Assembly (NCBI RefSeq): GCF_921293095.1
Contig: NW_025791658.1
Location: 7,750,001-7,814,000, forward strand
Direction of reading: 5' to 3'
From: Ischnura elegans
Lineage: Eukaryota; Arthropoda; Insecta; Odonata; Coenagrionidae
DNA: 64,000 nucleotides
Shown here: positions 1 to 60,423 of the stretch, in pieces
Layout of the letters: the number at the start of each line of letters is the position of its first letter
Numbering within the stretch: the stretch's first letter is position 1
Notes under the pieces: model-generated
The model's input: only the letters and a program-made list of their open reading frames with translations
Told to the model about the DNA's origin: nothing
Database searches by the model: none
Made by a program: the position numbers and the translations under genes

Positions 1-3000
1 AAAAGTAAAAATTGAAAAAAGGAAATTTTGAAAAAAGGAAATTTTGAAAAAAGAAAGTATAGAAAAAAGGAAATATTGAAAAGAGGAAATATTGCGAAAG
101 GAAATATTGAAAAAAGGAAATATCAAAATAAGAAAATATTTAGAAAGGAAATATTGACAAAAGGAAATATTGAAAATAGTAAATTTTGAAAAAAGGAAAT
201 ATTGAATAAAGGAAATATTGAAAAAAGAAGTATGGAAAAAATGAAATATTGAGAAAGGAAATATTGAAAATAGTAAATTTTGAAAAAAGGAAATATTGAA
301 TAAATGAAATATTGAGAAAGGAAGTATGGAAAAAATGAAATATTGAGAAAGGAAATATTGACAAAAATAAATATTGAAAATAGGAAATTTTGAAAAAAGG
401 AAATATTGAATAAACGAAATATTGAAAAAAGAAAATATTGAGAAAATGAAGTATTGAGAAAAGGAAGTATTGATAAAAGGATATATGGAAAAAAAGAATA
501 TATATAAAAAAAGGAAATATTGAGAAAGGAAATATTTAAAAAAGGAAATATTGAATAAGAAATATTTACAAAAGGAAATAATGAATAAAGGAAATATTGA
601 AATAAGGAAATATTGAAAAAAGAAGATATGGAGAAAGGAAATATTGAGAAATGAAATATTGAAAAAAGGAAATATTGACAAAAGGAAATATTGAAAAAAG
701 GAAATATTGAAAAAAGGAAATATTGAAAAAAGGAAATATTGAAAAAAGGTAATATTGAAAAAAGGAAATATTGAAAAAAGTAAATATTGAAAAAAGGAAA
801 TAATGAAAAAAGGAAATATTGAAAAAAGACAATATAGAAAAAAGGAAATATTGAAAAAAGGAAATATCAAAATAAGAAAATATTTAGAAAGGAAATATTG
901 ACAAAAGGAAATATTCAAAATAGTAAATTTTGAAAAAAGGAAATATTTAATAAAGGAAATATTGAAAAAAGAAGTATGGAAAAAATGAAATATTGAGAAA
1001 GGAAATATTGTAAATAGTAAATTTTGAAAAAAGGAAATATTGAATAAAGGAACAATTGAGAAAGGAAGTATGGAAAAAATGAAATATTGAGAAAGGAAAT
1101 ATTGACAAAAAGAAATTTTGAAAATAAGAAATTTTGAAAAAAGGAAATATTGAATAAGGGAAATATTGAAAAAAGAAAATATTGAGAAAATGAAGTATTA
1201 AAAAAGGAAGTATTGATAAAAGGATATATGGAAAAAAAGGAAATATTGAAAAAAGGAAATATTGAGAAAGGAAATATAGACAAAAGGAAATATCGAAAAA
1301 AGGAATAATTGAAAAAAGGAAATATTGAAAAGAGGAAATATTGAAAAAAGAAAATATTTAAAAAAGGAAATATTGAATAAGAAATATTTACAAAAGGAAA
1401 TAATGACTAAAGGAAATATTGAAATAAGGAAATATTGATAAAAAGGAAATATTGAGAAAGGAAATATTGAGAAATGAAATATTGAAAAAAGGAAATATTG
1501 ACAAAAGGAAATATTGAAAAAAGGAAATATTGAAAAAAGGAAATATTGAAAAAAGGAAATATTGAAAAAAGGAAATGTTGACGAAAGGAAATATTGCAAA
1601 AAGGAAATATTGAAAGAAGGAAATATTGAAAAAAGGAAATATTGAAAAAAGGAAATATTGAGAAAAGAAAATATTGAAAAAAGGAAATATTGATAAACGT
1701 AAATATTGAAAAAAGGAATAATTAAAAAAAGGAAATATTGAAAAAAATAAAAAAATATTGACAAAAGGAAATATTTTGAAAGGAAATATTGTCAAAAGGA
1801 AATATTGAAAAAAGGAAACATTAAAAAAGGAAATATTGAGAAAGGAAATATTGATAAAAGGAAATATTGCAAAAAGGTAATATTGAAAAAAGGAAATATT
1901 GGAGAAAGGAAATATTGAAAAGTCGAAATATTAAAAAAGAAGAAATATTGAAAAAGGAAACCTTAAAAAAAAGGAAATATTGACAAACGGAAATATTGAA
2001 AAAAGGAAATATTGACAAAAGGAAATATAGAAAAAAGGAAATATTGACAAAAGGAAATATTGAAAAAAGGAAATATTGCAAAAAGGAAATAATGAAAAAA
2101 GGAAATATTGAAAAAAGGAAATATTGAAAAAACGACATATTGAAAAGAGGAAATATTGAAAAAAAGGAAATATTGAAAAAAGGAAATATTGAGAACGGAA
2201 ATATTGACAAAAAGAAATATTGAAAAAAGGAAATTTTGAAAAGAGGAAATATTGAATAAAGGAAATATTGAGAAAGGAAGTATGGAAAAAATGAAATATT
2301 GAGAAAGGAAATATTGACAAAAAGAAATATTGAAAATAGGAAATTTTGAAAAAAGGAAATATTGAATAAAGGAAATATTGAAAAAAGAAAATATTGAGAA
2401 AATGAAGTATTTAGAAAAGGAAGTATTGATAAAAGGATATATGGAAAAAAAGGAAATATTGAAAAAAGGAAATATTGAGAAAGGAAATATGGACAAAAGG
2501 AAATATCGAAAAAAGGAATAATTGAAAAAAGGAAATATTGAAAAGAGGAAATATTGAAAAAAGAAAATATTTAAAAAAGGAAATATTGAATAAGAAATAT
2601 TTACAAAAGGAAAAAATGAATAAAGGAAATATTGAAATAAGGAAATATTGAAAAAAAGGAAATATTGAGAAAGGAAATATTGAGAAATGAAATATTGAAA
2701 AAAGGAAATATTGACAAAAGGAAATATTGAAAAAAGGAAATATTGAAAAAAGGAAATATTGAAAAAAGGAAATATTGAAAAAAGGAAATATTGAAAAAAG
2801 TAAATATTGAAAAAAGGAAATTTTGAAAAAAGGAAATATTGAAAAAAGAAAATATAGAAAAAAGGAAATATTGAAAAGAGGAAATATGGAGAAAGGAAAT
2901 ATTGAAAAAAGGAAATATCAAAATAAGAAAATATTTAGAAAGGAAATATTGACAAAAGGAAATATTGAAAATAGTAAATTTTGAAAAAAGGAAATATTGA

Positions 3001-5230
3001 ATAAAGGAAATATTGAAAAAAGAAGTATGGAAAAAATGAAATATTGAGAAAGGAAATATTGAAAATAGTAAATTTTGAAAAAAGGAAATATTGAATAAAG
3101 GAAATATTGAGAAAGGAAGTATGGAAAAAATGAAATATTGAGAAAGGAAATATTGACAAAAATAAATATTGAAAATAGGAAATTTTGAAAAAAGGAAATA
3201 TTGAATAAACGAAATATTGAAAAAAGAAAATATTGGGAAAATGAAGTATTGAGAAAAGGAAGTATTGATAAAAGGATATATGGAAAAAAATAATATATTG
3301 AAAAAAGGAATTATTGAGAAAGGAAATATGGACAAAAGGAAATATCGAAAAAACGAATAATTGAAAAAAGGAAATATTGAAAATAGGAAATATTGAAAAA
3401 AGAAAATGTTTAAAAAAGGAAATATTGAATAAGAAATATTTACAAAAGGAAATAATGAATAAAGGAAATATTGAAATAAGGAAATATTGAAAAAAAGGAA
3501 ATATTGAGAAATGAAATATTGAAAAAAGGAAATATTGACAAAGGGAAATATTGAAAAAAGGAAATATTGAAAAAAGGAAATATTGAAAAAAGGAAATATT
3601 GAAAAAAGGAAATATTGAAAAAAGGAAATATTGAAAAAAGTAAATATTGAAAAAAGGAAATATTGAAAAAAGGAAATATTGAAAAAAGACAATATAGAAA
3701 AAAGGAAATATTGAAAAAAGGAAATATTGAGAAAGGAAATATTGAAAAAAGGAAATATTAAAATAAGAAAATATTTAGAAAGGAAATATTGACAAAAGGA
3801 AATATTGAATATAGTAAATTTTGAAAAAAGGAAATATTGAATAAATGAAATATTGAAAAAAGAAAATATTGAGAAATAGAAGTATTGAGAAAAGGAAGTA
3901 TTGAAAAAAGGATATATTGAAAAAAAGGAAATATTGAGAAAAGGAAATATTGAGAAAGGAAATATGGACAAAAGGAAATATTGAAAAAAGGAATAATTGA
4001 AAAAAGGAAATATTTAAAAGAGGAAATATTGAAAAAAGAAAATATTTAAAAAAGAAAATATTGTAAAAGAAATATTTACAAAAGGAAATAATGAAAAAAG
4101 GAAATATTGAAAAAAGGAAATATTGAAAAAAAGGAAATATTGAGAAAGGAAATATTGAGAAATGAAATATTGAAAAAGGAAATATTGACAGAAGGAAATA
4201 TTGAAAATAGGAAATATTGAAAAAAGGAAATATTGAAAAAAGGAAATATTGAAAAAAGGAAATATTGAAAAATGTAATTATTGAAAAAAGGAATTACTGA
4301 AAAAAGGAAATATTGAAAAAAGAAAATATAGAAAAAGGAAATATTGAAAAGAGGAAATATTGAGAAAGGAAATATTGAAAAAAGGAAATATTAAAATAAG
4401 GAAATATTTAGAAAGGAAACTTTGACAAAAGGAAATATTGAAAAAGGAAGTATTGAAAAAAGGAAATATTGAGAAAGGAAATACTGAAAAAAGAAAATAT
4501 TAAAATGAGGAAATATTGACAAAGGAAATATTGACAAAAAAAATATTGAAAAAGAAAGAATTGACAAGAGGAAATATGGAAATAAGGAAATATTGAAAAT
4601 AGGAAATATTGAGAAAGGTAATATTGTTTAAAGGAAATATTGAAAAAAGGAAATATTGAAAAAAGGAAATATTGAAAAAGGAAATATTGACAAAAGGAAA
4701 TAATGAAAAAAGGAAATATTGAAAAAAGAAAATATTGAAAAAAGGAAATATTAAGAAATAAATAATTGAAAAAAGGAAATATTGAAAAAAAAAATATTGA
4801 GAAAGGAAATATTGACAAAAGGAAGTTTTGAAAAAAGGAAATATTGAAAAAAGGAATTATTGAGAGAGGAAATATTGACAAAAAGATGTATGGAAAAAAG
4901 GAAGTATTGAAAAAAGGATATTGAAAAAAGGAAATATTGATAAAAGGAAATATAAAAAAGGAAATATTGATAAAAGGAAAAATTGAAAAAAGGAAAAATT
5001 GAAAAAAAGAAATATTGGAAAATGGAATAATTAAAAAAAGGAAATATTGAGAAAGGAAATATTGACGAAAGGAAATATTGAAAAAAGGAAATATTGACAA
5101 AAGGAAATATTGAAAAAAAAAATAATAAAAAAAAGGAAATCATGAAAAAAAAGAATGTATAGAAAGGAAATTTTGACAAAAGGAAATATTGAAAAAAGGA
5201 GATATTTAAAAAAGGAAGTATTGAAAAAAG
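1..5230. repeat. 16-bp purine-rich minisatellite array
   Basis: Tandem array of a degenerate 16-bp unit, GAAAAAAGGAAATATT, running from the window edge to about 5230, roughly 325 units. The plus strand has almost no C. Variant units recur in a fixed order: the landmark GGATATATGG lies at about 479, 1222, 2435 and 3274 (a variant at 3910), and a run containing TCAAAATAAG lies at about 125, 870 and 2918. The array therefore has higher-order blocks of about 0.64 to 1.2 kb. Units become more degenerate after about 4500. No gene is present. The complementary strand has no stop codon in any phase of the unit, which creates long meaningless open frames. Confidence 0.95.
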
Positions 5231-5635
5231 GGTTTATAAACATTCTGTAATTTCTTTTGTTTATGCATATTCCCATATGTGCGTAAAAAGTAGCTTCTTC
5301 TCGTATCATCAATTAATGGTTAATTCTAACAAAACTATATAGAATACCTTGAGATAAAAATTATTTGGATGACGCATTTTAAAAATCCATACAATTTCAG
5401 TATTCTTGGGCTTTTAAACATTCTGTAATTCCTTTTGTTCATGCATATTCCCATATGTGCTTAAAAAAAGTATCTTCTCGTATCGTCAATTAATGAGTTA
5501 TTCTAACAAAACTATATCGAATGCCTTAGGGCACTTATTATTTGGATGATGCATTTATAAAAATCCATGCAATTTCAGTAAGTTTGGGTATTTACACATT
5601 CTGTAATTCCTGTTGTTTATGCATATAACCATATA
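5231..5635. repeat. 179-bp satellite, left fragment
   Basis: About 2.3 monomers of the AT-rich satellite that fills the rest of the window, recognised by TATGCATATTCCCATATGTG and GCATCTTCTCGTATCGTC. It starts mid-monomer directly after the 16-bp minisatellite and is cut at 5635 by the Helitron-like insertion. The monomer resumes at 18346. Confidence 0.93.
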
Positions 5636-6130
5636 CTCGCACGCTCCGCGCGCTCGTTAAGGGGCTCCGCCCCTTAAAACCCCGGTTCCGGCTCTGCCGT
5701 CAACATTTGTGGTCGTTCGAAGACTTTTGAAGATCGAATACACTCAACACGGCTAGGGGCCGGCTTAGCCGGCCAGGGGGTAGGGATGTGCCCCACTCAT
5801 TCCTCGGAACGGCTTCGCCATTCCTCACTGAAGGGCGGCTTCGCCGCCTGGGGGTTTAGTGTGCCAGAGGGCGAGGGCATTTCGGAACTGTTTCACCGTC
5901 ATTCGTTTAAGGGGCGGCTTCGCCGCCCAGAGGTGGGGGGAGTCCACAGCGGTTGCGCCGCTTGAACATCGGGGCGGCTACGCCGCCCGGGGGTTGCTGA
6001 AGCTCCCCTTCGCCTACGCCAGTTCCTCGTTGTGGGGCGGTTTCGCCGCCTTGGGGTTGAGGAGCCCCCCCGCGGCTGCTCCGCCTAGCCCTTATAAATG
6101 GTCTTCCCCACCGAGAGGGGTGCCCAGGGG
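5636..6130 (-). repeat. GC-rich hairpin array, unit A
   Basis: Stretch with repeated short inverted repeats such as GGGCGGCTTCGCCGCC and GGAACGGCTTCGCCATTCC, separated by about 20-60 bp. Most have a 3-nt loop. Read on the element's sense (minus) strand, the core is GGC-GAA-GCC. The open frames here (arginine- and proline-rich) are by-products of the repeats. Confidence 0.85.
5657..5677 (-). other. 3'-terminal hairpin, unit A
   Basis: Perfect 9-bp stem TTAAGGGGC with loop TCC (plus strand), 21 nt from the unit's 3' end at 5636. Its position matches the hairpin that precedes Helitron 3' ends and is thought to signal the end of rolling-circle replication. Confidence 0.75.
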
Positions 6131-7100
6131 GATTCGGGGATTTTAATGTGTTATGCATGCGGTGACCAAAAGTGCACAGTGATCATGTAGCGATGATTGT
6201 AAAAGGTAGTGCAATGCGGATTAATAGTGGCGACAAGTACCCATAAAAGAAGACTTAATGGCAAGTTTTTCATTTTTTTTTCGGGGGGTTCCTACGGAAT
6301 ACCGGGGGTTTTATACTTGTGTTAAACCAGTGGTCACTAAAAGTTCTCATAAATTCCGTGCCGATAAGTCCTAGGGGACCGGAAGAGTGGTCTTACGATT
6401 CTTTTCCCTGGAGAGGCTATTTATTAGAAATTTTTTGGGAGGTTTCACGGGGTTATCGGGGGTTTTAATAAGTGGTAGGGGCACCGGTTAAATTGTGTCG
6501 AAAACTATTCGGAAAGGCGAGTTTAAAATTCATTAATTTTTTAGCGATGTTCCAGGAGGTGATCGGGGGTTTCTGGTATTTTTTCTCGTATGGTTTACGG
6601 TTGCTCGCCCTCACCAAATATTCCGGATCTAGACCTCAGAGGGGACGGGTAGTGCGGCGTAATGTTTGCGAGAAGTTCCCAAATAGGAGACTAAATGACA
6701 CATTTTACATTTGGGGGGGATTTCACGGGGATACCGGGGGTTTAAATGTGTGTACTCCTGGCGTTCACCATCCATTCACATAAATTTCGGGGGGATGAGT
6801 CGTTGGGGGCGGTGGAATAGTCACGAAAAGTACCGAAAAAGTAGACTTATTTGAAAATTTTTTTTTGGGGGGGGGGGTATGTGGGTTTACCGGGGGTTTA
6901 TAGGTTTTTACTGCCAGCGGTCATCAATCGTCCACATCAATTCCGTAGCGATGAATGGTAAGGATTGGAAAAGCGGCGGAATTGTGACGAAAGGTACCCG
7001 ACAAGGCTACTTATATGCTAATTTTAATTTTTTAGGGGGTTTTTGGGGGTTAAAAGATGACGGTACTATATGGTCACATTCATTTACTGTCATGTCTAAA
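6130..7100. repeat. Degenerate ~150-170 bp modules in unit A body
   Basis: Loose tandem modules marked by ACCGGGGGTTT-like strings (about 6302, 6451, 6559, 6731, 6889, 7037) and by CCGTAGCGATGA-like strings (about 6190, 6352, 6940). The same modules occur in unit C (about 11720-12620 and 13360-13690). Traces occur near 9465-9545 and 16570-16650 in units B and D. Poly-G tracts of 5-10 bases punctuate them. No function is recognised. Confidence 0.6.
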
Positions 7101-7875
7101 AGAATTGTGCCCTATGACATCCATATTTCGAAAGTAATACAATAAAAAGCAAACCAGTCCCTGAAAAATGTTAGCAGTGCCCGCCATTTTTATTTTTTCG
7201 CGGTTAAATCCATTAAACTATTATTAAAATGTTTATGTTTTCTGAAAGACAATGCATAGTTGTATGTAACTACAAAGTTTGAAAGAAATCGGTTGAGTTA
7301 AAATTGACAAAACCTTGTGTTAATCTTTTGAAAATCGTAATTTTCGGTGATTTCGGAATATTTTAATTTTATTCTCAGTAACCAAGGACGATGAAAGAAA
7401 AACGTTACCTACATTTCGAAGACTATTTTATGAGCATATATAATAATCATTTTCAATATCCTACACATGTAATTACGACTAGGGGAGCGGAAGTTATGAA
7501 ATATTTTTCGAAAACCCAATTTTTGGACGCCATTTTGGCAGCAAATTTCTTAAAAAGAAACTTAAAACATAACATAATTACGTTACTACATTTACCAGCT
7601 TTCAGAAAATGCATTAACGATCCGTGTGGCATGCACGGTTCGCGCGCAGTAAAATAAAAACCGGAAGACGGTCCCCGGAAAAAGCGCGATTTCGGCCATT
7701 TTGTCGTTCTAGCGACGACACGTGGCAGAAACTTCCGGTTTTCGGATTTTTCCTCCGAATCATTTCAGGTTCCCCGCACGCGTGCCAAATTTCAGCTCTC
7801 CAGCACTTCTAGAAGTGGTCGGGAATTTGTATTCATCAGTGAGTCAGTCACCACGAGGGCTGTATATAGTTAGGA

Positions 7876-9340
7876 CTCGCCGCGCTGCGCGCGCTCGTTA
7901 GGGGGCTACGCCCCCTAAAACCCCCCGCATCCGGCTTCGCCGGCTGCCCCCGCCGGCTGCCCCCGCCGGACGGCTTCGCCGTCCACCCCGCGACTACTCG
8001 GAACGGCTGAGCCGTTCCTCGCCAAGGGGTCGTCTTCGCCGCCCATATATTTAGGCAGCCCTCCGACAGACAGCAGCTGGTTCCTCGAAAGGGCTTCGCC
8101 GTTCATCGTGTGAGGGCGGCTTCGCCGCACAAATGTTACCCGAGTCCCACCTAGGCGTGGACTCCTGGGAACGGCATCGCCCTTCCTCGTGCCGGGGCGG
8201 CTTCGCCACCCAAGGTTTACCGGTGTTCCCCCGAGACTGCGACAACTCGGAACGGCTGCGCCGTTCCTCGCCGCCCCCACCGGACGGCTTCGCCGTCCCA
8301 CCCGGGACTCCTCGGAACGGCTTCGCCGTTTCTCGTTGTGGGTCAGCTTCGCCGCCCATATATTGAGGCAGCCCTCCAACAGACACCAGCTAGCACCTCG
8401 GAACGGCTTCGCCGTTCATCGTGTTAGGGCGGCTTCGCCGCCCAAGGGTTACCCGAGTCCCCCAGAGGCGTGGACTCCTGGGAACGGCATCGCCCTTCCT
8501 CGTGGCGGGGCGGCTTCGCCGCCCAAGGTTTACCGGTGTTCCCCCGCGCCTTCGACAACTCGGAACGGCTGCGCCGTTCCTCGCCTGTGGGCGGCTTCAC
8601 CGCCCAAGGGTTATCTCGTCGTAATGGGGCGGCTTCGCCTCCCAAGGTTTACCTATTTCCCCGAGCCATCGCCTCCTCGGAACGGCTGAGCCGTTCCTCG
8701 CGTGGGGGCGGCTTCGCCGCCCAAGGGTTATCGGCGCCCTCCCTCGTAAGCTTCCTCGTAATGGGGCGGGTTCGCCGCCCAGGGTTTACCCGTGTTCCCC
8801 CGAGGCGTCGAATCCTGGGAACGGCGTCGCCCTTCCACGTGATAGGGCGGCTTCGCCGCCCAAGGTTTACTGTGTCCCCCCGAGCCGTCGACTCCTCGGA
8901 ACGGCTTCGCCGTTCCTCGTCTGTGGGCGGCTTTGCCGCCCAAGGGTTATCGGCGCCCTCCCCCCGTAAGCTTCCTGGTGATGGGGCGCCTTCGCCGCCC
9001 AAGGTTTACCCGTGTCTCCCCGAGGCGTCGACTCCTGGGAACGGCATCGCCCATCCGCGTGATGGGGCGGCTTCGCCGCCCAAGGTTTACTGTGTCCCCC
9101 CGAACCGTCAACTCCTCGGAACGCATTCGCCGTTCCTCGTCTTTGGGCGGCTTCGCCGCCCAAGGGTTATCGGCGCCCTCCCCCCTCGTAAGACACCCAT
9201 TCGGCTGCCCCACGTGTTGGAGCGGATTTGCCGCCCGAGGGTTCTCGGAGGTTTTCCGCGCCTCTGACTCCTTGGAATGTCTCCGTCGTTCCTGGGGCGG
9301 GGGCAGCTTCGCCGCCAGGGTTTTCACTCCTCACAGAGCA
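7876..9340 (-). repeat. GC-rich hairpin array, unit B
   Basis: Alternating hairpins of two main kinds: GGGCGGCTTCGCCGCCC (7-bp stem) and GGAACGGCTTCGCCGTTCC (8-bp stem), each about every 80-90 bp from roughly 7925 to 9160. Spacers are conserved, for example AAGGTTTACC and GTCGACTCCT. Stems vary in paired positions, including GGACGGCTTCGCCGTCC near 8283. No protein-coding signal is present: long frames on both strands merely follow the repeat. Confidence 0.88.
7898..7918 (-). other. 3'-terminal hairpin, unit B
   Basis: Perfect 9-bp stem TTAGGGGGC with loop TAC, 22 nt from the 3' end at 7876. Compared with units A and C, the fourth stem pair is G-C instead of A-T: a compensated change. Confidence 0.75.
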
Positions 9341-11125
9341 ATGCGTACTACCAGCTAACCCCCATCGTTTACAAAGGCTACCGGGGGATAATGAGGCAGA
9401 ATGTAGACGCATGCTAGCCGTGATTGTGGCATTTTAGCTAATGACCATGTTTCGAAGGCGGTCCGGGGGGTTTCCAGGGGTTTTTATGAGTGTACTGACA
9501 ACGGTCACAATCATCCAAATGAATTCCTTAGCGATGAGTCATAGGAGAAGGGAAATACTGCTAAAATATGCGAAAACACCGAAGAACATGCTATTAACAG
9601 AAAAAGAAGAATTTTTTCCCCGGTCTTATAGGAAGCCACGTGAAATTTCGAGGGGTTTTCTTGCATAAAAGGTCTTTGTCTACCTACAGTAAAAATTCCA
9701 GCGATCTAACTGTAGGGGAACAATGAATTTTCCCGTATTACCCACATTTAGATTACCAATTCTGTGATCTCCACATAGCGGTTCATAGGCGCTGTAATAA
9801 GGCATAACTAAAGTGAATTTCGTAGCCGTACCTTATGGGGAAGTGGTTAAAAAAATCGGTTTTAGGTGTCCTTGTCCTGGAAGCCCTTTTATTACTCTAC
9901 TATTTTGTTAAGAAATGTACATTTAAAAATTTGAAGTTTTATTGCGGGTGTGTAATTGCGGCAGGATAATTGAACATGACGCGTAAATATAGCCGACACA
10001 ATTCCCATTCGGAATCAATAAAAACGATACAACTGGGATGAATGGTACACGAAATATACGACTTATTATGTAATTTTTATTTTTTTGGGGGGGTCACAGG
10101 GGGTTTTCGAGGGACCTAAAGTGCTTGTTCTATATGACGCGGCATCGTTTACCTTGGATAAACATTTCGGCTCTGTAGCTGTAGTGTAAGCATGCTTTTT
10201 CGACGGTGTCACCCGTTAAAATTAAATATTCTGCGTTCTCCTGGTAGCGGCGCGTAGGGGCACGAGAAAGACGTCAATCACCTGAATTTGGTGTCCGTAC
10301 CACGTCGGGAAGTGGTAAAAAAAAATTCGGAAAAATTTAAAATCGTGTGTTGAGGGAATGCAAACTTCACGGCGGATGTGTTGTAAGTTACCAAACGTTG
10401 TAGGAGTCGCAATTTCAATGGAAATACATAATCGTTAATAACTCGAAATTCTTTCGTCCTTTGGATACATGAAGATAGCCGAAAAATTGAATAAAAAATC
10501 TAGTATCTTGCATTAAAGTGAATTTGTCCTACGATTATTGCAAATTGGTGAAAAAAATTCCGAAATTCGGCCCATAAGAAACGCATTGAAAATTTGAAAA
10601 AGTTAAAAAAAATACTTTTAATCAAAATATTGCAAAGAAAACGACACTACAAAATCAACCAAAAAATCTAGTATCTCATACGTGAAGGACTTATTCCTAC
10701 AACGATTTAAAGTTGGTTTAAAAAAAATCCAAAGATAGGCCCATAAGAAAAGCATTGGAAATTTAAAAAAATTATAAAAAATACTTATGATCAAAATACG
10801 GCTAAATGGTTCACATCAAAAAATCGGCCAAAAAACCTAGTTTCCGTCAGTGAAATTTCACGTTCCCGTGACGTTTGCAAGTATGCGAAGAATGGAAAAC
10901 GTTTTAGTCCCATAAGGCTCCAATGTTAATTCGGATCGATATATCTCGAAAACCGATCGACTTTTTCCAGTTTTCGGACTTTTCCCCTCGATGAATATTT
11001 TTTCTCCACGGCCTGTAAAAATTTCGTCTTCCCAGCACGTCCGGAAGTGGTCGGGAATTTGTATACGTGAATCAGTCAGTGGTCAGTGAGCTATCTGTCA
11101 CACATCGGGTTGTATATAATATAGA

Positions 11126-11720
11126 CTCGCTGCGCTCCGCGCGCTCGTTAAGGGGCTCCGCCCCTTAAAAACCCCGGGTCCGGCTTCGCCGTCTACATTT
11201 GTGATTCTTCGAAGAATTTTAGTTCGAATAATCTCACCTCAGCTAGTGGCCGGCTTCGCCGGCCAGGGGGTAGGGAAGCGCCCCACTCATTCCTCGGAAC
11301 GGCTACGCCGTTCCTCGTTGAGAGGCGGTTTCGCCGCCCAGGGGTTGAGTGTGCCCCCCCGGGGCTACCCCGCTTTATACTCGGAACGGCTTCGCCGTTC
11401 CTCGTCAGGGGTCGGCAAAGCCGCCCAGAGGGCAAGGGCATTTTGGAACTGTTTTACCGTCATTCGTTTAAGGGGCGGCTTCGCCGCCCAGAGGCAGAGG
11501 GAGCCCACAGCGGCTGCGCCGCTTTAACGTCGGGGCGGCTTCGCCGCCCAAGGGTTACTGAAGCTCCCCCTCGCCTACGCCAGTTACTCCTCGGAACGGC
11601 TTCACCGTTCCTCGTTGTGGGGCGGCTTCGCCGCCTTGGGGATAATGAGCCCCCCGCGGCTGCTCCACGTAGTCCTCATAAATGGTCCTCTCCACCGAGA
11701 GGGTGCCCAGGGGGATTAGG
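11126..11720 (-). repeat. GC-rich hairpin array, unit C
   Basis: Counterpart of the unit A array. It contains GGCCGGCTTCGCCGGCC near 11250, GGAACGGCTACGCCGTTCC near 11297, GGAACGGCTTCGCCGTTCC near 11384 and several GGGCGGCTTCGCCGCC copies. Stem sequences differ between hairpins but remain self-complementary. Confidence 0.86.
11148..11168 (-). other. 3'-terminal hairpin, unit C
   Basis: Stem TTAAGGGGC with loop TCC, the same as in unit A, 22 nt from the 3' end at 11126. Confidence 0.75.
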
Positions 11721-12176
11721 GGGTTTTCATGTGTTATACATGCGGTCATCAATCGTCCACAGTGATCATGTGGCGATGATTTTAAAGGGTAGTGCAATGC
11801 GGCGTAATAGTGGCGACAAGTACCCATAAAAGAAGACTTAATGGCAAGTTTTCATTTTTTGCTGGGGGTTCCAACGGAATACCGGGGGTTTTATGCGTGT
11901 GAAAACCAGTGGTCACAAATCGTTCTCATAAATTCCGTGCGGATAAGTCCTAGGGGTCTGGAACAGTGGCAGAATTCTGACGATTGTTTTACCCGGATAG
12001 GCGATTTATTAGAAAAAATTTTCTGGGAGCTTTCACGGGGTTATCGGGGGTTTTAATAAGTAGTAGAGGCACCAGACAGTAGTAGAGTAAATAGTGACGA
12101 AAACTACTCGGAAAAGCGCCTTTGACATTTTTTTATTTTTTTTCGGCGAGGTTCCAGGAGGTGATCGGGGGTTTTC

Positions 12177-14400
12177 TGGTATTTTTTTCCGTTTTATTTA
12201 CGGTGGCCCGCCCTCATCAAATATTCCGGATCTAGAGCTCAGAGGGGAGGGGTAGTGCGGCGTAATGTTTGCGAGAAGTTCCCAAATAGGAGACTTAATG
12301 GCACACTTTACATTTGGGGGGATTTCAGGTGGATACCGGGGGTTTATATGTGTGTACTCCTGGCGGTCACCATCCGTTCACTTGAATTCCGTAGGGATGA
12401 GTCGTTGGGGTAAGAACCAGCGGTGGAAAGTCACGAAAAGTACCGAAAAAGTAGACTTATATGCAAAACTTTATTTTTTGGGGGGTGTATGTGGGTTTAC
12501 CGAGGTTTATAGGTTTTTACTACCAGGGGTCATCAATTGTCCACATCAATTCCGTAGCGATGAGTGGTAAGGCTAGAAAAGCGGTGGAATTGAGATGAAA
12601 AGTACCCAAAAAGGCTACTTATATTCAAATTTTAATTTTTTAGGGTTTTCAGGGGGTTTAAATATGGCCTTGTTATATGGTCACATGCATTTACTATCAT
12701 AACTAAGAGAAGTTGCCCCTATGACATCCATATTTCGATAGTAGTACAATAAAAAGTAAACCTCTCCCCGGAAAAAATTAGTACTGTCCGCCATTTTTAT
12801 TTTTCCGCAGTTATATCGACTGCAACATTTATTAAATTCTTATATTTTCGGAAACCATATGAATAGATGTATGTAATTGTAGAGTTTAAAAGAAACATTG
12901 AAGAAATCTTGTGTCAATCTTTTGAAAATCGTAATTTTCGGTGATTTTGGGAACGTTTTTATTTTTTCTGGAAAACCATGGACGAAAAAAAGAAAATTGT
13001 TACCTACATATCGTAGACGATGTTATGAGCATATATAATAATCATTTTCAGTATCCTACACCTGCAATTACGACGAGGGGAGAGGGAGTTATGAAATTTG
13101 TTTCGAAAAAGCTTTTCGGACGCCATTTGTGCAGCAATTTACTTTAAAATTATCTAAATCCATTACATAATTACGTGACTACATTCATCAGCTTTCAAAA
13201 CGTACATAAACTATCCGCGTGGCACACACCGTTCACGCGCAGTAAAATACAAACCGAAATACCGTCCCCGGAAAAGGCGCGATATCGGCCATTTTGTCGT
13301 CCTAGCCATGACACGTGGCGGAAACTTCTGGTTTTCGGATTTTTCCTCCGGAGGTTTTCTGGTATATTTTCCCGTATGGTTTACGGTGGCCCGCCTTCAT
13401 CAAATATTCCGGATCTAGAGCTCAGTGGGTACGGGTAGTGCGGCGTATTGTTTGCGAGAAGTTCCCAAATAGGAAACTTTTATGAAATTTTTTATTTTTT
13501 GGGGGGTGTATGTGGGTTTACCGGGGATTTATAGCTTTGTACTGCCAGGGGTCATCAATTGTACACATTAATTCCGTAGCGATGAGTGGTAATTCTTGGG
13601 AAAGCGGTGGAATCGTGACGTAAAATACCCGAAAAGGCTTCTTATGTGAATATTTTTATTTTTTAAGCGGTTTCGGGGGGTTTAAAGATGAAAATACTAT
13701 ATGGTCACATTCATTTACTTTCATATCTAACAGAAGTGAGCCCCATGACATCCATATTTCGAGAGTAATACAATAAAAAGCAAACCAGTCCCCGAAAAAA
13801 GTGAGTAGCATCCGCCATTTTTATTTTTTCGCGGTTAAATGCGTTGAATCATTTATTAAAAATTCATGTTTTCTGAAAGACAATGCAAAGTTGTATGTAA
13901 CTACAAGGCTTGAAAGAAATCGGTAAGGTTAAATTTGACAAAATCTTGTGTTAATCTTTTGGAAATCGTAATTATCGGTGATTTTCGAAATATTTTATTT
14001 TTTTTCTGAGTAACCAAGGACGACGAAAAAAAATTGTTGCCTACATTTTGTAGACAATAATATAAGCATATATAATAATCATATTCGTTACCCTACACCT
14101 TAAATTAACTCGAATGGAGCGGAAGTTATGAAATTTTATTCGAAAAATAAATTTTTGGACGCCATTTTGGCTGCAATTTTCTCACTTGGAAACTAATAAA
14201 TTTACTTTAATACATGCCCACGTTCATCAGCTTTCAAAAAAAGCATTAGTGACCCGTGTGTCACGCATAATTCGCGCGCAGTAAAATAAAAACCGAAAGA
14301 CTGTCCCCGAAAAAAGCCCGATTTCGGCCATTTAGTCGTTCTAGCGACGACACGTGGCGGAAACTTCCGGTTTTCGGATTTTTCCTCCGGATCATTTCGG
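12177..14400. repeat. Internal ~1.1-1.2 kb duplication in unit C
   Basis: The sequence beginning GGTATTTTTTTCCG near 12177 and running to TTTTTCCTCCGG near 13350 is repeated from about 13356 to 14390. The shared landmarks are TCAAATATTCCGGATCTAGA, GAGCATATATAATAATCATT and GACACGTGGCGGAAACTTC. Unit A carries only one copy (about 6570-7770). Confidence 0.75.
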
Positions 14401-14544
14401 GTTCCCCACACGCGTGCCAAATTTCAGCTCTCCAGCACTTCTAGAAAAGGTCGGGAATTTGTATCCATCAGTGAGTCAGACACCACGAGGGCTGTATATA
14501 GATAGGATGTATATAGATAGGACTCGCCGCGCTGCGCGCGCTCG

Positions 14545-14565
14545 TTAGGGGGCAACGCCCCCTAA
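14545..14565 (-). other. 3'-terminal hairpin, unit D
   Basis: Stem TTAGGGGGC with loop AAC, the same stem as in unit B with a different loop, 22 nt from the 3' end at 14523. Confidence 0.75.
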
Positions 14566-14984
14566 ATCCCCCCGCATCCGGCTTCGCCGGCTGCCCCCAC
14601 CGGACGGCGAAGCGGCTTCGCCGCACAAGGGTTACCCGAGTCGCCCCAAGGCGTGGACTCCTGGGAACGGCATCGCCCTTCCTCGTGCCGGGGCGGCTTC
14701 GCCGCACAAGGTTTACCGGTGTTCCTCCGAGACTGCGACAACTCGGAACGGCTGCGCCGTTCCTCGCCGCCCCCACTGGACGGCTTCGCCGTCCAACCCG
14801 TGACTCCTCGGAACGGCTTCGCCGTTTCTCGTTGTGGGTCGGCTTCGCCGCCCATATATTGAGGCAGCCATCCAACAGACACCAGCTAGTACCTCGGAAC
14901 GGCTTCGCCGTTCATCGTGTTAGGGCGGCTTCGCCGCCCAAGGGTTACCCGAGTCCCCCCGAGGCGTGGACTCCTGGGAACGGC

Positions 14985-15930
14985 ATCGCCCTTCCTCGTG
15001 GGGGGGCGGCTTCGCCGCAAGAGGTTTACTGGTGTTCCCCCGCGCCTTCGACAGCTCGGAACGGCTGCGCCGTTCCTCACCTGTGGTTATCTCGTCGTAA
15101 TGGGGCGGCTTCGCCTCCCGAGGTTTACCTATTTCCCAGAGCCATCGCCTCCTCGGAACGGCTGCGCCGTTCCTCGCGTGAGGGCGGCTTCGCCGCCCAA
15201 GAGTTATCGGCGCCCTCCCTCGTTAGCTTCGTCGTAATGGGACGGGTTCGCCGCCCAGGGTTTACCCGTGTTCCCCCGAGGCGTCGACTCCTGGGAACGG
15301 CATCGCCCTTGCTCGTGGGGGGGCGGCTTCGCCGCCCAAGGTTTACTGGTGTTCCCCCGCGCCTTCGACAGCTCGGAACGGCTGCGCCGTTCCTCACCTG
15401 TGGTTATCTCGTCGTAATGGGGCGGCTTCGCCTCCCGAGGTTTACCTATTTCCCCGAGCCATCGCCTCCTCGGAACGGCTGCGCCGTTCCTCGCGTGAGG
15501 GCGGCTTCGCCGCCCAAGAGTTATCGGCGCCCTCCCTCGTTAGCTTTGTCGTAATGGGACGGGTTCGCCGCCCAGGGTTTACCCGTGTTCCCCCGAGGCG
15601 TCGACTCCTGGGAACGGCATCGCCCTTCCTCGTGGAGGGGCGGCTTCGCCGCCCAAGGTTAACCGGTGTTCCCCCGCGCCTTCGACAGCTCGGAACGGCT
15701 GCGCCGTTCCTCACCTGTGGTTATCTCGTCGTAATGGGGCGGCTTCGCCTCCCGAGGTTTACCTATTTCCCCGAGCCATCGCCTCCTCGGAACGGCTGCG
15801 CCGTTCCTCGCGTGAGGGCGGCTTCGCCGCCCAAGAGTTATCGGCGCCCTCCCTCGTTAGCTTCCTCGTAATGGGACGGGTTCGCCGCCCAGGGTTTACC
15901 CGTGTTCCCCCGAGGCGTCGACTCCTGGGA
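14985..15930. repeat. 317-bp tandem triplication in hairpin array D
   Basis: The marker CTGTGGTTATCTCGTCG is found at 15081, 15398 and 15715, an exact 317-bp period. The copies are nearly identical and the third is truncated. Each carries several hairpins. Unit B has one equivalent, near 8587. This is a recent local expansion. Confidence 0.9.
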
Positions 15931-17472
15931 ACGGCGTCGCCCTTCCGCGTGATAGGGCGGCCTCGCCGCCCAAGGTTTACTGTGTCCCCCCGAGCCGTCG
16001 ACTCCTCGGAACGGCTTCGCCGTTCCTCGTCTGTGGGCAGCTTCGCCGCCCAAGGGTTATCGGCGCCCTCCCCCCGTAAGCTTCCTGGTGATGGGGCGCC
16101 TTCACCGCCCAAGGTTTACCCGTGTCCCCCCGAGGCGTCGACTCCTGGGAACGGCATCGCCCTTCCGCGTGAAGGTGCGGCTTCGCCGCCCAAGGTTTAC
16201 TGTGTCCCCCCGAACCGTCGACTCCTCGGAACGCGTTCGCCGTTCCTCGTTTTTGGGTGGCCTCGCCGCCCAATGGTTATCGGCGCCCTCCCCCCTCGTA
16301 AGACACCCATTCGGCTGCTCCACGTGTTGGAGCGGATTTGCCGCCCGAGGGTTCTCGGAGGTTTTCCGCGCCTCTGACTCCTCGTTATGTCTCCGTCGTT
16401 CCTGGGGCAGGGGCAGCTTCGCCGGCGGGGGTTTCACTCCTCACAGTGCAATGCGTACTACCAGCTTTCCCCGATCGTTTACAAAGGCTGCCGGGGGAGA
16501 ATGTGGCTGAATGTAGACGCATGCTAGCCGTGATTGTGGCATTTTAGCTTATGACGATGTTTCGAAGGGAGTCCGGGGGGTTTTCAGGGGTTTTTATGAG
16601 TATACTGACAACGGTCGCAATCATCCAAATAAATTACTTAGCGATGAGTCATAGGAGAAGGGAGTTACTGCTAAAATATGCGAAAACACCGAGGAACATA
16701 CTATTCATAGAAAAGAAATACTTTTTTCCCTGGTCTTCTTCGAAGCCACGTGAAATATCGAGAAGTTGTCTTGCATAAAAGGTCTTTGTCTACCTACAGT
16801 AAAAATTCCAGCGATCTAACTGTAGGGGAACAATGAATTTTCCCCTATTACTCACATTTAGATTACCAATTATGTGTTCTCCACATAGCGGTGCATAGGC
16901 GCTGAAATAAGGCATAATTAATGTGAATTTCGTAGCCGTACCTTATGGGAAAGTGGTTAAAAAAATCGGTTTTAAGTGTCCTTGTCCTGGAACCCCTTTT
17001 ATTACTCTACTATTTTGTTAAGAAATGTACATTTAAAAATTTGAAGTTTTATTGCGGGTGTGTAATTGGGGCAGGATAATTGAACAAGACGCGTAAATAT
17101 AGCCGACACAATTCCCATTCGGAATCAATAAAAACGATACAACTGGGATGAATGGTACACGAAATATACGACTTATTAAGTAATTTTTATTTTTTTAGGG
17201 GGGTCACAGGGGGTTTTCGGGGGACCTAAAGTGCTTGGTCTGTATAACGCGGCATCGTTTACCTTGGATAAAATTTTCGGCTCTGTAGCTGTAGTGTAAG
17301 CATGCTTTTTCGACGGTGTCACCCGTTAAAATTAAATATTCTGCGTTCTCCTGGTAGCGGCGCGTAGGGGCACGAGAAAGACGTCAATCACCTGAATTTG
17401 GTGTCCGTACCACGTCGGGAAGTGGTAAAAAAAAATTCGGAAAAATTTAAAATCGTGTGTTGAGGGAATGCA

Positions 17473-17573
17473 GGCCATCGAAACGTTGGCAGCAATGGCC
17501 ATCATCACCCGGCTGATTTCCCGAGAAGAGTTCATCAACAGCATTCGCCGGGAAAGAACCAAATCCTTCTTCA
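17473..17573 (+). other. Coding-like fragment captured in unit D
   Basis: Units B and D match on both sides, but D has about 100 extra bp here, replacing three bases of B (10363-10365). The fragment is GC-richer than its surroundings. On the plus strand it reads through without a stop from an ATG at 17468, with many C or G third codon positions. It includes the residues EEFINSIRRERTKSFF. This looks like a piece of exon, and capture of gene fragments is well known for Helitrons. I do not recognise the source protein. It lies antisense to the element. Confidence 0.5.
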
Positions 17574-18345
17574 TTCACGGCGGATGTGTTGTAAGTTACC
17601 AAACGTTGTAGGAGTCGCAATTTCAATGGAAATACATAATCGTTAATAACTCGAAATTCTTTCGTCGTTTGGATACATGAAGATAGCCAAAAAATTGAAT
17701 AAAAAATCTAGTATCTTGCATTTAAGTGAATTTGTCCTACGACTATTGCAAATTGGTGAAAAAAATTCCGAAATTCGGCCCATAAGAAAAGCATTGAAAA
17801 TTTGAATAAGTTAAAAAAAATACTTTAAATCAAAATATTGCAAAGAAAACGACACCAAAAAATCAAACAAAAAATCTAGTATCCCATACGTTAAGGACTT
17901 ATTCCTACAACGATTTAAAGTTGGTTTTAAAAAAATCCAAAGATAGGCCCATAAGAAAAGCATTGGAAATTTAAAAAAATTATAAAAAATACTTTAAATC
18001 AAAATATGGCAAAATGTTTCACATCAAAAAATTGGCCAAAAAATCTAGTTTCTGTCAGTGAAATTTCACGTTCCCGTGACATTAAAAGTAGGCGAAGAAT
18101 GGAAAAAGTTTTAGTCCCATAAGGCTCCAATGTTAATTCGGATCGATATATCTCGAAAACCGATCGACTTTTTCGAGTTTTCGGACTTTTCCCCCCGATG
18201 AATATTTTTTCTCCACGACCCGTAAAAATTTCGTCTTCCCAGCACGTCCGGAAGTGGTCGGGAATTTGTATACGTGAATGAGTGAGTGAATGAATGAGTG
18301 AGCTATCTGTCACACATCGGGTTGTATATATTATAGATAGATAGA

Positions 18346-24950: not shown

Positions 24951-25422
24951 CACTGTGTGCGCGCAGTTGTTAGACATGCTTGTGGATCGACGCCGCTGTC
25001 CAGGAAAAACATCCAAGCACAACGACACCAACAGGTACGTTATAAATTTTGGAGTGCATTCATTGGAAATTGCTTATTAACTTCACGCAAATAATTTATT
25101 TTACAATATACGAGTATATAATTTCTTTTGGTTAGCACGTATCTCTGGTTCATAATAACTGAACGAGATGAATGGCATTATATGTAATAACTTATAGTTT
25201 TATCATTATCTCGACGGGGTATAATCTGCCCATGTACTCTTTTTTGTGAATCTCCTTTTGCAACTCTTGCGAGAGCTCAGACTGCACTTGGTGAGTAACT
25301 TGGTGAGTACGCTACGCAGCTATTTCACCTTTGAATTTTTATACCTTATGCCGTACATTGTTCCATATGTTGCATCCCATTTTCCTCTAAATATGTTTTT
25401 ATTACCGATATTAGTTGGAGTG

Positions 25423-27140
25423 ATGAGTTATGAAAAGGAAAAACAGAGGCTGTCACGGTTGCTGTCCGAAGTAGATAAAGAACCGCAAGAATCCCTGCAT
25501 TTTGATGACGACGATGACGAAGATCCTTTGGAGGTGCAAGAAGAGAGCAGTGACTCGGAACAAGACTGGGACATGGAGGACGGAGATGCAATGAAAGAGG
25601 ATGATATCTTCACCGGGAAAGATGGGACCACCATATGGAGAAAGAAAACACCAAAACAAAGCGTAAGAACGCGTTCAAAAAATATAATTACAAAATTACC
25701 AGGGCCTAGAGGAAAAACGAAAGGAATAACAAGTTCTATAGAATAATGGCGATGTTGTTTTTGACAGTTCAATAATAAATATGATTACCGATTGTACTAA
25801 CAAAGTCATTGATAAGGTTTCTCCTAATTACGGGCGTAGCACGTACGCAAGACCTGCTAATGTTCATGAAATTGAAGCACTAATGGGATGCTGCTGCTTT
25901 ATTGTATCAATAAAAGTAATCACGAAAATGCCGAAGACCTCTTTAGTACCAAAGGCAATTCAATTGAAATATTTCGTCTTGTCATGTCAATTCAGCGTTT
26001 CCGATTTTCTGCTGCGTCATCTAACTTTTGATGACAAAGAAACTAGAGATGAAAGACGTAAAGTTGATAAGCTTGCCCCCGTGCGAGAGGTATTTGATTT
26101 GTTTGTTGAAAACTGCGAAAATAATTTCAGCTTATCTGCCCAGGTTACCATAGACGAGAAGTTGGAGGCATTTTGAGGTCGCTGTGGGTTTCGTCAGTAT
26201 ATACCAAATAATCCCGCCAAATATGGAATAAAAACATTTCCTTCGCAATGCAAAAATGCATTACACGTCCAACTTAGATGTTTACGTTGAAAAACAACCC
26301 GATGGGCCGTATTCAATGGACAATAGAGCATTTGCCGTGGTTGAACGCTTGTGTGAGCCAATTTATAACACTAACCGTAATGTTACCATGGACAACTGGT
26401 TCACTAGCATTGAGCTTCTTGAGAGACTGCTGAATATCTATCAGCTGACTTCAGTGAGCACAATCAGAAAAAATAAACGCGGCTTACCTCCAGAATTCGT
26501 TCAAGAAAAGGGAAGTAAAGTGAAATCATGTCTGTTTAGTTTTAGGAAAAATTGTACATTAGTTTCGCACGTCCCCAGAAAAGGAAAAAATGTTCTCTTG
26601 ATTTCAAGCATTCACGACTTAGACCAAGTGGATGCAATAACTACAAAACCTGATATCATTTTCACCTATTACAGCACAAAAGGTGGAGTAGATGTCGTGG
26701 ATAGGTTGTGTGCTAACTACAATTGCGCTAGACCAACAAGGCTTTGGCTAATGGTCGTGTTTTATTCATTATTGAATATATCAACAATAAGGTCTCAAGT
26801 AATATACACTATCAACAACAAGAAAGAAAGCCTTGTACTGCGTAAATTTATTGAAGGAATTGCATTTTCCCTGATTGAAAAACATCTTAGGAATCGTGCA
26901 TCTATGGAAAACTTACCACGAATCGCTCGTTTACGGATAAATGAACTACTGACCATTAAGCCATAAGAATTACCTCCTAATCCTACTGAAGGGCAGATTG
27001 GGCGCTGTAAATATTGTGACAGTAAGAGGAGTCGTAAAACGCGATACTCTTGTAAAATTTGTAACTCATTTCTCTGCCTTGAACACGTAACCTTGCAATG
27101 CGAAAGGTGCTATGCCAAAAATTCAGAAGCCTTCTTTTGA
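25423..27140 (+). pseudogene. Broken piggyBac transposase, copy 1
   Basis: Remnant of a DDD transposase (PGBD type). It starts at ATG 25423 with an acidic N-terminal region (DDDDDEDP), and ends with a cysteine-rich domain (27011-27140, CKYC, CKIC and CERC motifs), typical of piggyBac C termini. The three catalytic aspartates are still readable in TIDEKL (26153), MDNWFTS (26391) and GGVDVVD (26691). Reading is broken by stops at 25744-25746 and 25762-25764, a frame change before 25781, a stop at 26174-26176, a frame change near 26245 and a stop at 26964-26966. No functional product is expected. An upstream extension from GTG 25246 is not supported, because a splice acceptor at about 25414 lies before the ATG. 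Confidence 0.93.
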
Positions 27141-45744: not shown

Positions 45745-46347
45745 CCCCGCACGGGGGAAAGAGAGTAATCTCTTCCTTTGGGGAGCCGCGCCCCCACGGA
45801 CCCGAGCCCACCGGGGAGACAACCTCGTCAAAAAACCCTTCGCACGCTAGGATAGCGTCCAGACAGCATGTGACTCTGCTGTGCTGAGTAGCCGATACAT
45901 CTGGCGTCCAGATTCACCCACGTGTTTGCCGTGCGTGGAGACCCGTACAAGGGGGAGAAGGGGATCCTGGTGGGTGAGTTCTCCGGCTCCCAGCTGGGCG
46001 TCGGAAACCCGGTATGGGCCGGAGTTCAATACCCCACTTCGGCCCTGGATTCCCCGAAAAACGGGCGGCCGAGAAGAGCCCAGCTCGGTCAATCGGCTCC
46101 TGGCGGCTGGGGAGCTTGGCGGCTCCTTCCGAGCGTACGCCAGGACGGGTTAGTGCTGGAGATATGGGGGTCTCCGTAGGGCGGCCGAAGGTGCGTGGGT
46201 TCGGAGGGCCCCCGCGCTGGAGGTTCTAACCCAAAAGAGACCCCCTATCAAAGGTTCCTATATCCCTTGGGTAGCCCTGGCGACCACACCGGATCTCGGT
46301 GTGGCGTCCCGAATGTGTGGCTCCGTGGTGGGTGGGGAGCCCAGGGG
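45745..46347 (+). promoter_or_regulatory. LINE 5' UTR with likely internal promoter
   Basis: A 603-bp GC-rich leader starting CCCCGCACGGGGG, which can fold into a short hairpin. LINEs of this group carry an internal promoter in this position, but no single motif can be proved here. An in-frame extension of ORF1 upstream to 46195 begins only at GTG and is not needed. Confidence 0.55.
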
Positions 46348-47523: not shown

Positions 47524-47621
47524 TTCCACAGACTTCCGGGCTAATGCTGCTCCAAGTTTCAATATTGACATCCTTTTTTTTTCTGTTTTTATTTATCTTT
47601 TACCCTTTTTAAACCCTTTTT

Positions 47622-60300: not shown

Positions 60301-60423
60301 AGAGAAGTATATAGGGCAAGTGGTGAGGAAGGAGTCAAAGATTTAATTCTAAAAAAAAAAGTCACAAAAAGTGCTATGATTGTAAATAAATTGCAAGCTA
60401 TTATGAAAAAATGTTCTGAATAA
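57394..60423 (+). CDS. Transposase fused to DEDDh 3'-5' exonuclease
   Basis: Four exons (57394-57757, 57877-58068, 58156-58219, 58458-60423) with GT-AG introns of 119, 87 and 238 bp give an uninterrupted 861-residue protein. All exon phases fit. ATG 57394 has a good context (GCAATGG) and an in-frame stop upstream. Residues 5-22 are basic, a possible nuclear signal. Residues about 43-480 match the Mutator-like transposase domain: C60/C63 and C88/C91 zinc-type pairs, AALG-MLDAGIG across the first splice, YDMGWQKRG, HDCRRNWSG, SDINHAKKNLGNALY and GNESFN. Candidate DDE residues are D226, D316 or D318, and E460 (inference). Residues about 587-765 are a complete DEDDh exonuclease: D595 and E597 (DVETTG), D685 (NFDAR), H745 and D750 (HNALND). 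The last 95 residues are basic and probably helical. The fusion is genuine, because both domains lie in exon 4. The exonuclease may trim or proofread transposition intermediates, but its role is unknown. Confidence 0.9.
58390..58455. repeat. AAT microsatellite in intron 3
   Basis: Eight or nine AAT repeats followed by a TAAATAA-rich tract and T-run, just upstream of the exon 4 acceptor TTTACAG (58451-58457). A frame running through it is intronic. Confidence 0.85.

Follow-up and report, generated by a model that had tools for sequence, protein, structure and literature searches.

Helitrons usually carry a single hairpin near the 3′ end, and what is known of how that end is recognized comes mostly from a single reconstructed element of bats. 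Arrays of short hairpins of which one strand is read by an HUH protein, TnpA, occur as bacterial REP/BIME elements, and DNA hairpins built on GCGNAGC have extra stability. Here we describe an array of four head-to-tail, non-autonomous Helitron-like units in a 64,000-nucleotide stretch of the Ischnura elegans genome (contig NW_025791658.1, positions 7,750,001 to 7,814,000; hereafter the window, C15:7750001-7814000 of the 1.72 Gb in 110 contigs that we searched). The 3′ parts of these units together hold dozens of triloop hairpins, mostly with GNA loops on the sense strand, which we read, with a probability of about 0.5, as multiplied copies of the 3′ terminator that are recognized by loop and not by stem. 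The likeness to REP/BIME arrays is one of description; the hairpins here form the terminal part of a Helitron.

In the part of PMC4778049 drawn on here, the bat element Helraiser/Helibat1 has one 19-bp palindrome with the loop ATT and the 3′ end CTAG; a swapped stem leaves ~90% of its activity, whereas an altered loop and closing pair cost as much as loss of the whole hairpin, which is described as a terminator. The vast majority of its precise junctions between right and left terminal sequences (RTS–LTS) formed in vitro come from the plus strand, which is also the only strand cut in a junction oligonucleotide (PMC5876387, likewise used in part). The elements described here resemble Helraiser in RepHel gene, 5′ TC, A|T target and 3′ terminator hairpin, and in what appears to be a loop that matters on a stem that can be swapped, but they differ in having two or five hairpins (autonomous ends seen) or 6–33 (window units), mostly with GNA loops, and a 3′ GCGAG. 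Head-to-tail arrays are also formed by tandem plant Helitrons (Xiong et al. 2016, as reported in the sections of PMC12628747 used); many of those plant arrays are described there as truncated, with one 3′ end for several 5′ ends, whereas the window holds four complete-ended units in which unlike families alternate.

The host of the insertion is a 179-bp satellite, identified by Tandem Repeats Finder (TRF), and the interval 5636–18345, previously marked in a first-pass annotation made from the sequence alone, coincides with both outer ends of the array. The units were delimited by reading their junctions and by comparing their ends with other genomic copies, giving the following features in window coordinates.

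5636–18345, minus strand: array of four head-to-tail non-autonomous Helitron-like units
18319–18345, minus strand: 5′ end of the array, TCTATCTATCTATAATATATACAACCC, with a host A before it on the sense strand
14523–18345, minus strand: unit X1, 3,823 bp, 5′ TCTATC..., 3′ ...GCGAG
11126–14522, minus strand: unit Y1, 3,397 bp, with TCCTATCTATATACA present twice at its 5′ end
7876–11125, minus strand: unit X2, 3,250 bp
5636–7875, minus strand: unit Y2, 2,240 bp

The sense strand of the units is the minus strand, on which they follow each other in the order X1–Y1–X2–Y2. Each starts with TC and a TATA-rich stretch and ends in ...GCGAG, to which the TC of the next unit is directly joined. X1 and X2 are 88% identical across 2.4 kb and Y1 and Y2 82–85% identical in their two longest matches; between X2 and Y2, similarity is limited to the hairpin arrays and to the outermost ~60 bp on either side (81 and 83%). 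There is no RepHel gene in the window units, and no frame of at least 150 amino acids (aa) was found in 5636–18345 except those running through the hairpin arrays. We also noted in X1 a stretch of ~100 bp (17474–17574) that is absent at the same place in X2. The stretch recurs at dispersed places in the genome (1,366 candidates at first look, of which 40 were scored), its full-length matches being 99–100% identical and often flanked by an inverted copy of part of itself, and it is probably a small mobile element. In addition, a palindrome starts 59 or 74 nt into the units, CACTTCTAGAAGTG in the Y-type and an imperfect CACTTCCGGACGTG in the X-type (seen at L041 positions 7796 and 2534), and is possibly a second transposase site.

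Perfect triloop hairpins with stems of at least six pairs number 52 in 5636–18345, against a mean of 3.6 in 20 dinucleotide shuffles; with at least seven pairs there are 45 against 1.55, and with at least eight 24 against 0. Loops of two, four or six letters showed no excess over the shuffles, and the excess at five and seven letters consisted mostly of the same hairpins with the inner pair opened. On the minus strand 43 of the 52 loops are GNA (GAA 28, GCA 10, GTA 3, GGA 2), the other nine being TCA (twice), TAA, TTT, AAA, GCT, GTT, CCG and GAG; in the hairpins with TTT, GCT and CCG the closing pair is not C–G. The rest of the window contains 97 such hairpins, 59 with the loop TGG, and the 31 displayed are all satellite, piggyBac-end or AT-rich. 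The first-pass annotation had reported dozens of stem-GGC-NNN-GCC-stem hairpins with GNA sense loops, which these counts bear out, and every stem that it named is present. Its picture of hairpins packed along the units is correct as to density but not as to extent: they lie in the 3′-terminal part of each unit (~1.7 kb in X1, ~1.25 kb in X2, ~0.5 kb in Y1, ~0.35 kb in Y2), except for isolated hairpins further up, two in Y1 and one in Y2. The arrays (in X1, stems of at least six pairs with at most one mismatch) and their last hairpins are as follows.

14545–16275, minus strand: X1 array, 33 triloop hairpins
14545–14565, minus strand: X1 terminal hairpin, TTAGGGGGC-GTT-GCCCCCTAA, with a non-GNA loop
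14528–14540, minus strand: X1 last short hairpin, CGCGC-GCA-GCGCG, 5 nt from the 3′ end
11148–11635, minus strand: Y1 array, nine hairpins in the last 0.5 kb
11148–11168, minus strand: Y1 terminal hairpin, TTAAGGGGC-GGA-GCCCCTTAA
11132–11142, minus strand: Y1 last short hairpin, GCGC-GGA-GCGC, 6 nt from the 3′ end and at the same place in autonomous copies
7898–9163, minus strand: X2 array, 24 hairpins, with decayed ones apparently continuing to ~9320
7898–7918, minus strand: X2 terminal hairpin, TTAGGGGGC-GTA-GCCCCCTAA
7881–7893, minus strand: X2 last short hairpin, CGCGC-GCA-GCGCG, 5 nt from the 3′ end
5657–5988, minus strand: Y2 array, six hairpins in the last 0.35 kb, and a decayed one near 6040
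5657–5677, minus strand: Y2 terminal hairpin, TTAAGGGGC-GGA-GCCCCTTAA
5641–5651, minus strand: Y2 last short hairpin, GCGC-GGA-GCGT, with an outer G–T pair

The terminal hairpin thus lies 21–22 nt, and the short hairpin 5–6 nt, from the 3′ end. Folding of three array stretches gave z-scores of about −4 to −7, compared with 0 to +1 for two controls (mid-unit and 5′ end), and a second comparison with shuffles gave −3.1 to −3.8. Both strands folded better than shuffled sequence in this comparison, which the first-pass annotation had proposed, but the energy set scores GNA and TNC loops equally, so that folding cannot reveal a strand preference. Chance or base composition as the source of the hairpins was rejected on the basis of the shuffles and of the reversed-pattern control given below. 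As the same stems could form in the RNA of either strand, the hairpins might instead act in transcripts to protect, process or silence the element; we regard this as very improbable, given that no Rfam family reached its gathering score within the window and that the arrays adjoin a DNA cut site, the last hairpin standing 5–6 nt before it.

The loop rule was then assessed genome-wide. The core CGGC-NNN-GCCG (CGGCNNNGCCG) occurs at 28,864 sites, 20,532 of which (9,937 + 10,595, or 71%) have the GNA form (CGGCGNAGCCG), compared with 978 of 12,347 (7.9%) for the reversed pattern. These counts are inflated by copy number, and the 521 instances of GGC-NNN-GCC in 49 fetched 3′ ends (some loci overlap) were therefore collapsed to 52 contexts less than 80% alike. 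The majority loop was GNA in 48 of the 52 (GAA 37, GCA 5, GTA 4, GGA 2), and TAT, GAT, AGA and AAA were found in one context each. GNA/TNC cores shared one orientation at 8/8 loci, at 5/5 hairpin-bearing loci (two sets) and at 25/30 of the loci L045–L074. The high copy number of the GNA cores would also suit independent mobile palindromes, comparable with bacterial REP or organellar palindromes, that have settled in Helitrons. We find this scarcely credible in view of the shared orientation and of where the cores lie: among the first 100 CGGCNNNGCCG places listed, all on contig C1, 95 fall at 1.258–1.414 Mb, where Helitron 3′ ends cluster, and the remaining five are isolated, before 1.0 Mb. 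A separate observation concerns an inner hairpin of the Y-type ends, GGGCGGC-TNN-GCCGACC (alignment A1; e.g. in L050, L052, L054, L056 and L057), in which the sense loop is TAT, TTT or TTC, the opposite of the GNA rule.

A candidate autonomous partner was found in the same genome, where Helitron_like_N has 119 matches, several of them in frames open over 1,481–1,925 aa. The RepHel frame at L039/L040 (~1,870 aa) has an HUH motif (RGLPHAH), a double tyrosine (YLFKY) and a PIF1 helicase and, read as two pieces, matched PF14214 (1.3e-31) and PF05970 (5.8e-50). Within 106 nt its 3′ end carries five hairpins, each on a different stem (CCCGAC-GAA, AACGGC-GAA, GCGGCCGGC-GCA, CTAGGGGGC-GTA and CGCGC-GCA), followed by ...GCGAG|TCC of the next unit. 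The same five hairpins occur at L075, at a matching distance from another 1,870-aa frame; the end at L077 reads AGGGGGC-GGA-GCCCCCT ... GCGAG|TC and is 4.9 kb downstream from a frame of 1,816 aa; and on C1 a 1,800-aa frame is followed after 6.5 kb, on its own strand, by a 3′ end motif, each of these three ends being assigned to its frame by distance. At L076, 2 kb downstream of a 1,756-aa RepHel, there was no GNA hairpin among those listed, and the 3′ end there was not located.

Several features of canonical Helitrons are therefore present, namely a RepHel with HUH Rep and PIF1/SF1B helicase (L039/L040), the L of the Rep motif RG(L)PHxH (a rule taken from the part of PMC4067079 used), a hairpin shortly before the 3′ end, insertion between A and T without target duplication and a 5′ TC, seen in the four window units and in other copies (with patterns that began with TC) and not found for the autonomous copy. 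The canonical 3′ CTRR is replaced by GCGAG in the four window units and in 51/51 fetched ends, although these ends came via a motif requiring GCGAG, so that other end forms could be missed. Helentrons and DINE-1 (HINE) elements are likewise rolling-circle transposons with non-autonomous partners and internal tandem repeats. However, Helentrons are characterized, in the same portion of PMC4067079, by an endonuclease domain, the Rep motif RG(S)PH with its S, and T-rich targets, whereas here the motif is RGLPH, neither piece of the L039/L040 frame has a Pfam match to an endonuclease family at E ≤ 0.001, and the target is A|T. No RepHel relative was confirmed in viral_contigs, where nine stretches matched the pattern, and the terminal-hairpin motif GGGGCGNAGCCCCYTARCGAGC gave 0 matches in viral_contigs and 0 in genome_contigs; the latter are prokaryotic genomes, so this null result tells little about eukaryotes. 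As a side observation, the N-terminal part of the L040 RepHel (3–2069, minus strand) also matched Herpes_teg_N (PF04843) at 1.9e-07, above its cut-off, which we take to be a possible protease-like domain on a Helitron.

We next consider whether the stems change in a compensated manner, as the first-pass annotation had proposed. For homologous copies, 24 of the 28 distinct a-type (Y-type) 3′ ends were aligned, with L008, L060, L069 and L073 omitted as near-duplicates and the doubtful consensus hairpin GCCCC-GGG-GGGGC excluded before counting. Of 1,486 cells, 97.1% were paired and 43 were broken, and there were three two-sided changes; shuffling of the 3′ letters gave a mean of 0.6, with 3/500 shuffles reaching three (9/500 for the covariation score), but slid controls yielded 1–3 such changes, which the observed three do not exceed. 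For paralogous hairpins, 48 GNA contexts were selected on core and loop alone. The second and third outer pairs were formed in 35/48 and 35/48, compared with 16.5 and 19.8 when the 3′ arms were shuffled (0/2,000), using G–C, A–T and C–G, with no pairing excess past the fifth outer pair; the independent events are few, two kinds of hairpin being dominant. The terminal hairpin likewise varies among families by paired changes (TTAAGGGGC/GCCCCTTAA, TTAGGGGGC/GCCCCCTAA, CTAGGGGGC/GCCCCCTAG). The proposed covariation thus holds between hairpin kinds, in which changed stems stay paired, and is weak at best among the 24 homologous copies, in which changes are mostly uncompensated.

Taken together, the hairpins of these units are Helitron 3′ terminator hairpins, five in the autonomous copy and 6 to 33 in the window units: they precede the terminal hairpin beside GCGAG|T, with which each series closes, and it is the sense strand that carries GNA. 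The stems differ but the three-letter loops are largely of a single kind, which suggests that the transposition enzyme reads the loop, and free stems with one loop class between hairpin kinds are the pattern that a Helraiser-type rule would leave. We have moderate confidence that the loop is the recognized feature, its recognition by the transposase here being a prediction from sequence. In the mechanism that we propose, RepHel would nick the sense strand at the 5′ TC, and this strand would peel off single-stranded, allowing every hairpin to fold. The enzyme would then recognize the loop and its C–G closing pair, rather than the stem, as a stop or docking signal and cut after GCGAG. Extra hairpins could arise by tandem duplication of the terminator segment and be kept in transposing lineages because they make 3′ docking and termination surer or draw the shared enzyme from other copies, and, once inserted, a copy would be free of constraint and its hairpins would decay. 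The inner hairpins may be working terminators. Our confidence that the multiplication is adaptive is low; the extra copies may be selected or may reflect repeat expansion.

Several observations weigh against this interpretation. The 1,816-aa family shows just two such hairpins, one of them with the loop AAA, so a long array is not required; X1 has the loop GTT in its own terminal hairpin; and five of the 30 loci L045–L074 hold one sense-strand TNC core. Stem compensation among homologous copies is at most weak as judged from the alignment, and the 209 loop readings in such copies comprise 185 with the majority loop, 12 with middle-only changes and 12 with a lost G or A; the loop G and A are thus kept no better than the middle letter, and the loop is not protected in young copies. 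A unit that ends at an inner hairpin was seen once, its junction being a single genomic copy, and this sole case may be a microhomology deletion between GGCGA repeats. Comparison of copies did not locate the 5′ terminus of the 1,870-aa autonomous family (the similarity of L040 to L078, 79.6% over 319 bp, stops at L040:2516), and mobilization of X and Y units by the L039/L040 RepHel therefore rests on the shared 3′ end. Finally, X-array length varies by tandem duplication, as in neutral repeats.

This last point bears on a further explanation, that only the last one to five hairpins work and the rest are passive expansion through polymerase stalling and slippage or unequal exchange, with GNA kept since the copies are young. 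Both X arrays are indeed tandemly duplicated (periods of 80–81, 117, 139–140, 220 and 317 bp, 75–95% match), which makes the raw hairpin count non-independent; the arrays range from ~0.35 to 1.7 kb with decayed hairpins throughout, no clear constraint is visible in the loop and stem changes of young copies, and tandem arrays are common inside Helitrons according to the sections of PMC12628747 used. On the other hand, TRF returned no tandem-repeat row for the Y arrays, the paralogous hairpins have several differing stems that are still paired, and the autonomous set combines five unlike stems with one loop class, which a single recent duplication cannot yield. We consider passive expansion possible, while leaning against it. 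Of the proposals in the first-pass annotation, the assignment to Helitron-like units is upheld by the 5′ TC, the A/T insertion, the 3′ terminal hairpin and a RepHel gene with the same 3′ end (L039/L040; the 3′ end also at L075), and the GNA preference of the sense strand holds, apart from the exceptions listed. Its suggestion that the arrays are multiplied terminators agrees with their ending in the terminal hairpin, but use of an inner hairpin as an end was seen only in the one single-copy junction.

With regard to insertion, the base after GCGAG was T in 33/33 distinct flanks collected with a pattern that made no demand on it, 24 of which were not recognized as the 5′ end of another unit (one of the 24 is the doubled 5′ end of Y1). 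The base before the 5′ TC was A in three of four non-unit flanks (L043, L047 and the window) and G in L041. The 3′ end motif occurs 1,680 times in the genome, against 0 for the reversed pattern, and in one class of 5′ ends 487/860 are joined to the GCGAG end of another unit. On C1, where at least 87 3′ ends were listed, 42 of these stand within 6 kb of another on the same strand, compared with 0.27 expected if uniform. The outer 10% of C1 contains 40 of the 87, and all 13 among the matches listed on C2 lie in its first 155 kb.

These stacks could form since the 5′ end of the element (A|TC..TATATAC) is a good target, and not via terminator read-through. The invariant T is consistent with this, as are the A+T-rich flank positions 2–13 downstream (22 flanks), which resemble the 5′ end itself, the frequency of joined ends and the fact that neighbours differ, X–Y–X–Y order suggesting repeated insertion at resident 5′ ends. 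However, four units on C1 stand at an exact 2,205-bp spacing, which resembles rolling-circle or unequal-exchange amplification and suggests that units are amplified as well; Helraiser too prefers A+T-rich targets, and its new insertions are not clustered around donor sites, as stated in the part of PMC4778049 used. We judge stacking by 5′-end targeting to be quite possible, a little short of an even chance. A bolder version of the terminator interpretation, which we consider unlikely, is that RepHel reads a C-GNA-G triloop whatever the stem and that hairpin number has been selected, from five to about thirty, making the non-autonomous elements stronger parasites; the arrays would then be a eukaryotic single-strand counterpart of iteron arrays, and the element's own 5′ end would be a target, so that competing families stack.

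The 3′ hairpin of Helitrons is known; its multiplication and the loop rule appear to be new, as no published report of either was found among the Helitron and hairpin papers listed (judged on titles and abstract openings), and the five hairpin sequences gave no full-text match in the literature. With hairpin numbers that range naturally from two to about thirty, free stems and mostly one loop class, this one genome provides many terminator variants, and the RepHel genes with long open frames alongside make what the enzyme reads, and the competition between copies, directly testable.

Other features of the window were also noted. About 330 copies of a 16-bp satellite, AAAAGGAAATATTGAA, fill positions 1–5231 and adjoin the 179-bp satellite. 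Within the latter are three near-identical piggyBac-type frame pairs (25225–26966, 30327–32068 and 35785–37526), spaced ~5.1 and 5.5 kb apart, the first of which, the only pair scanned, matched DDE_Tnp_1_7. An apparently open non-long-terminal-repeat retrotransposon lies at 46180–51323; of its two frames, one (447 aa) matches no Pfam family and the other (1,236 aa) contains endonuclease, reverse transcriptase and RNase H. A 713-aa frame at 58282–60423 combines a Mutator-like transposase domain with an RNase T-type exonuclease domain.

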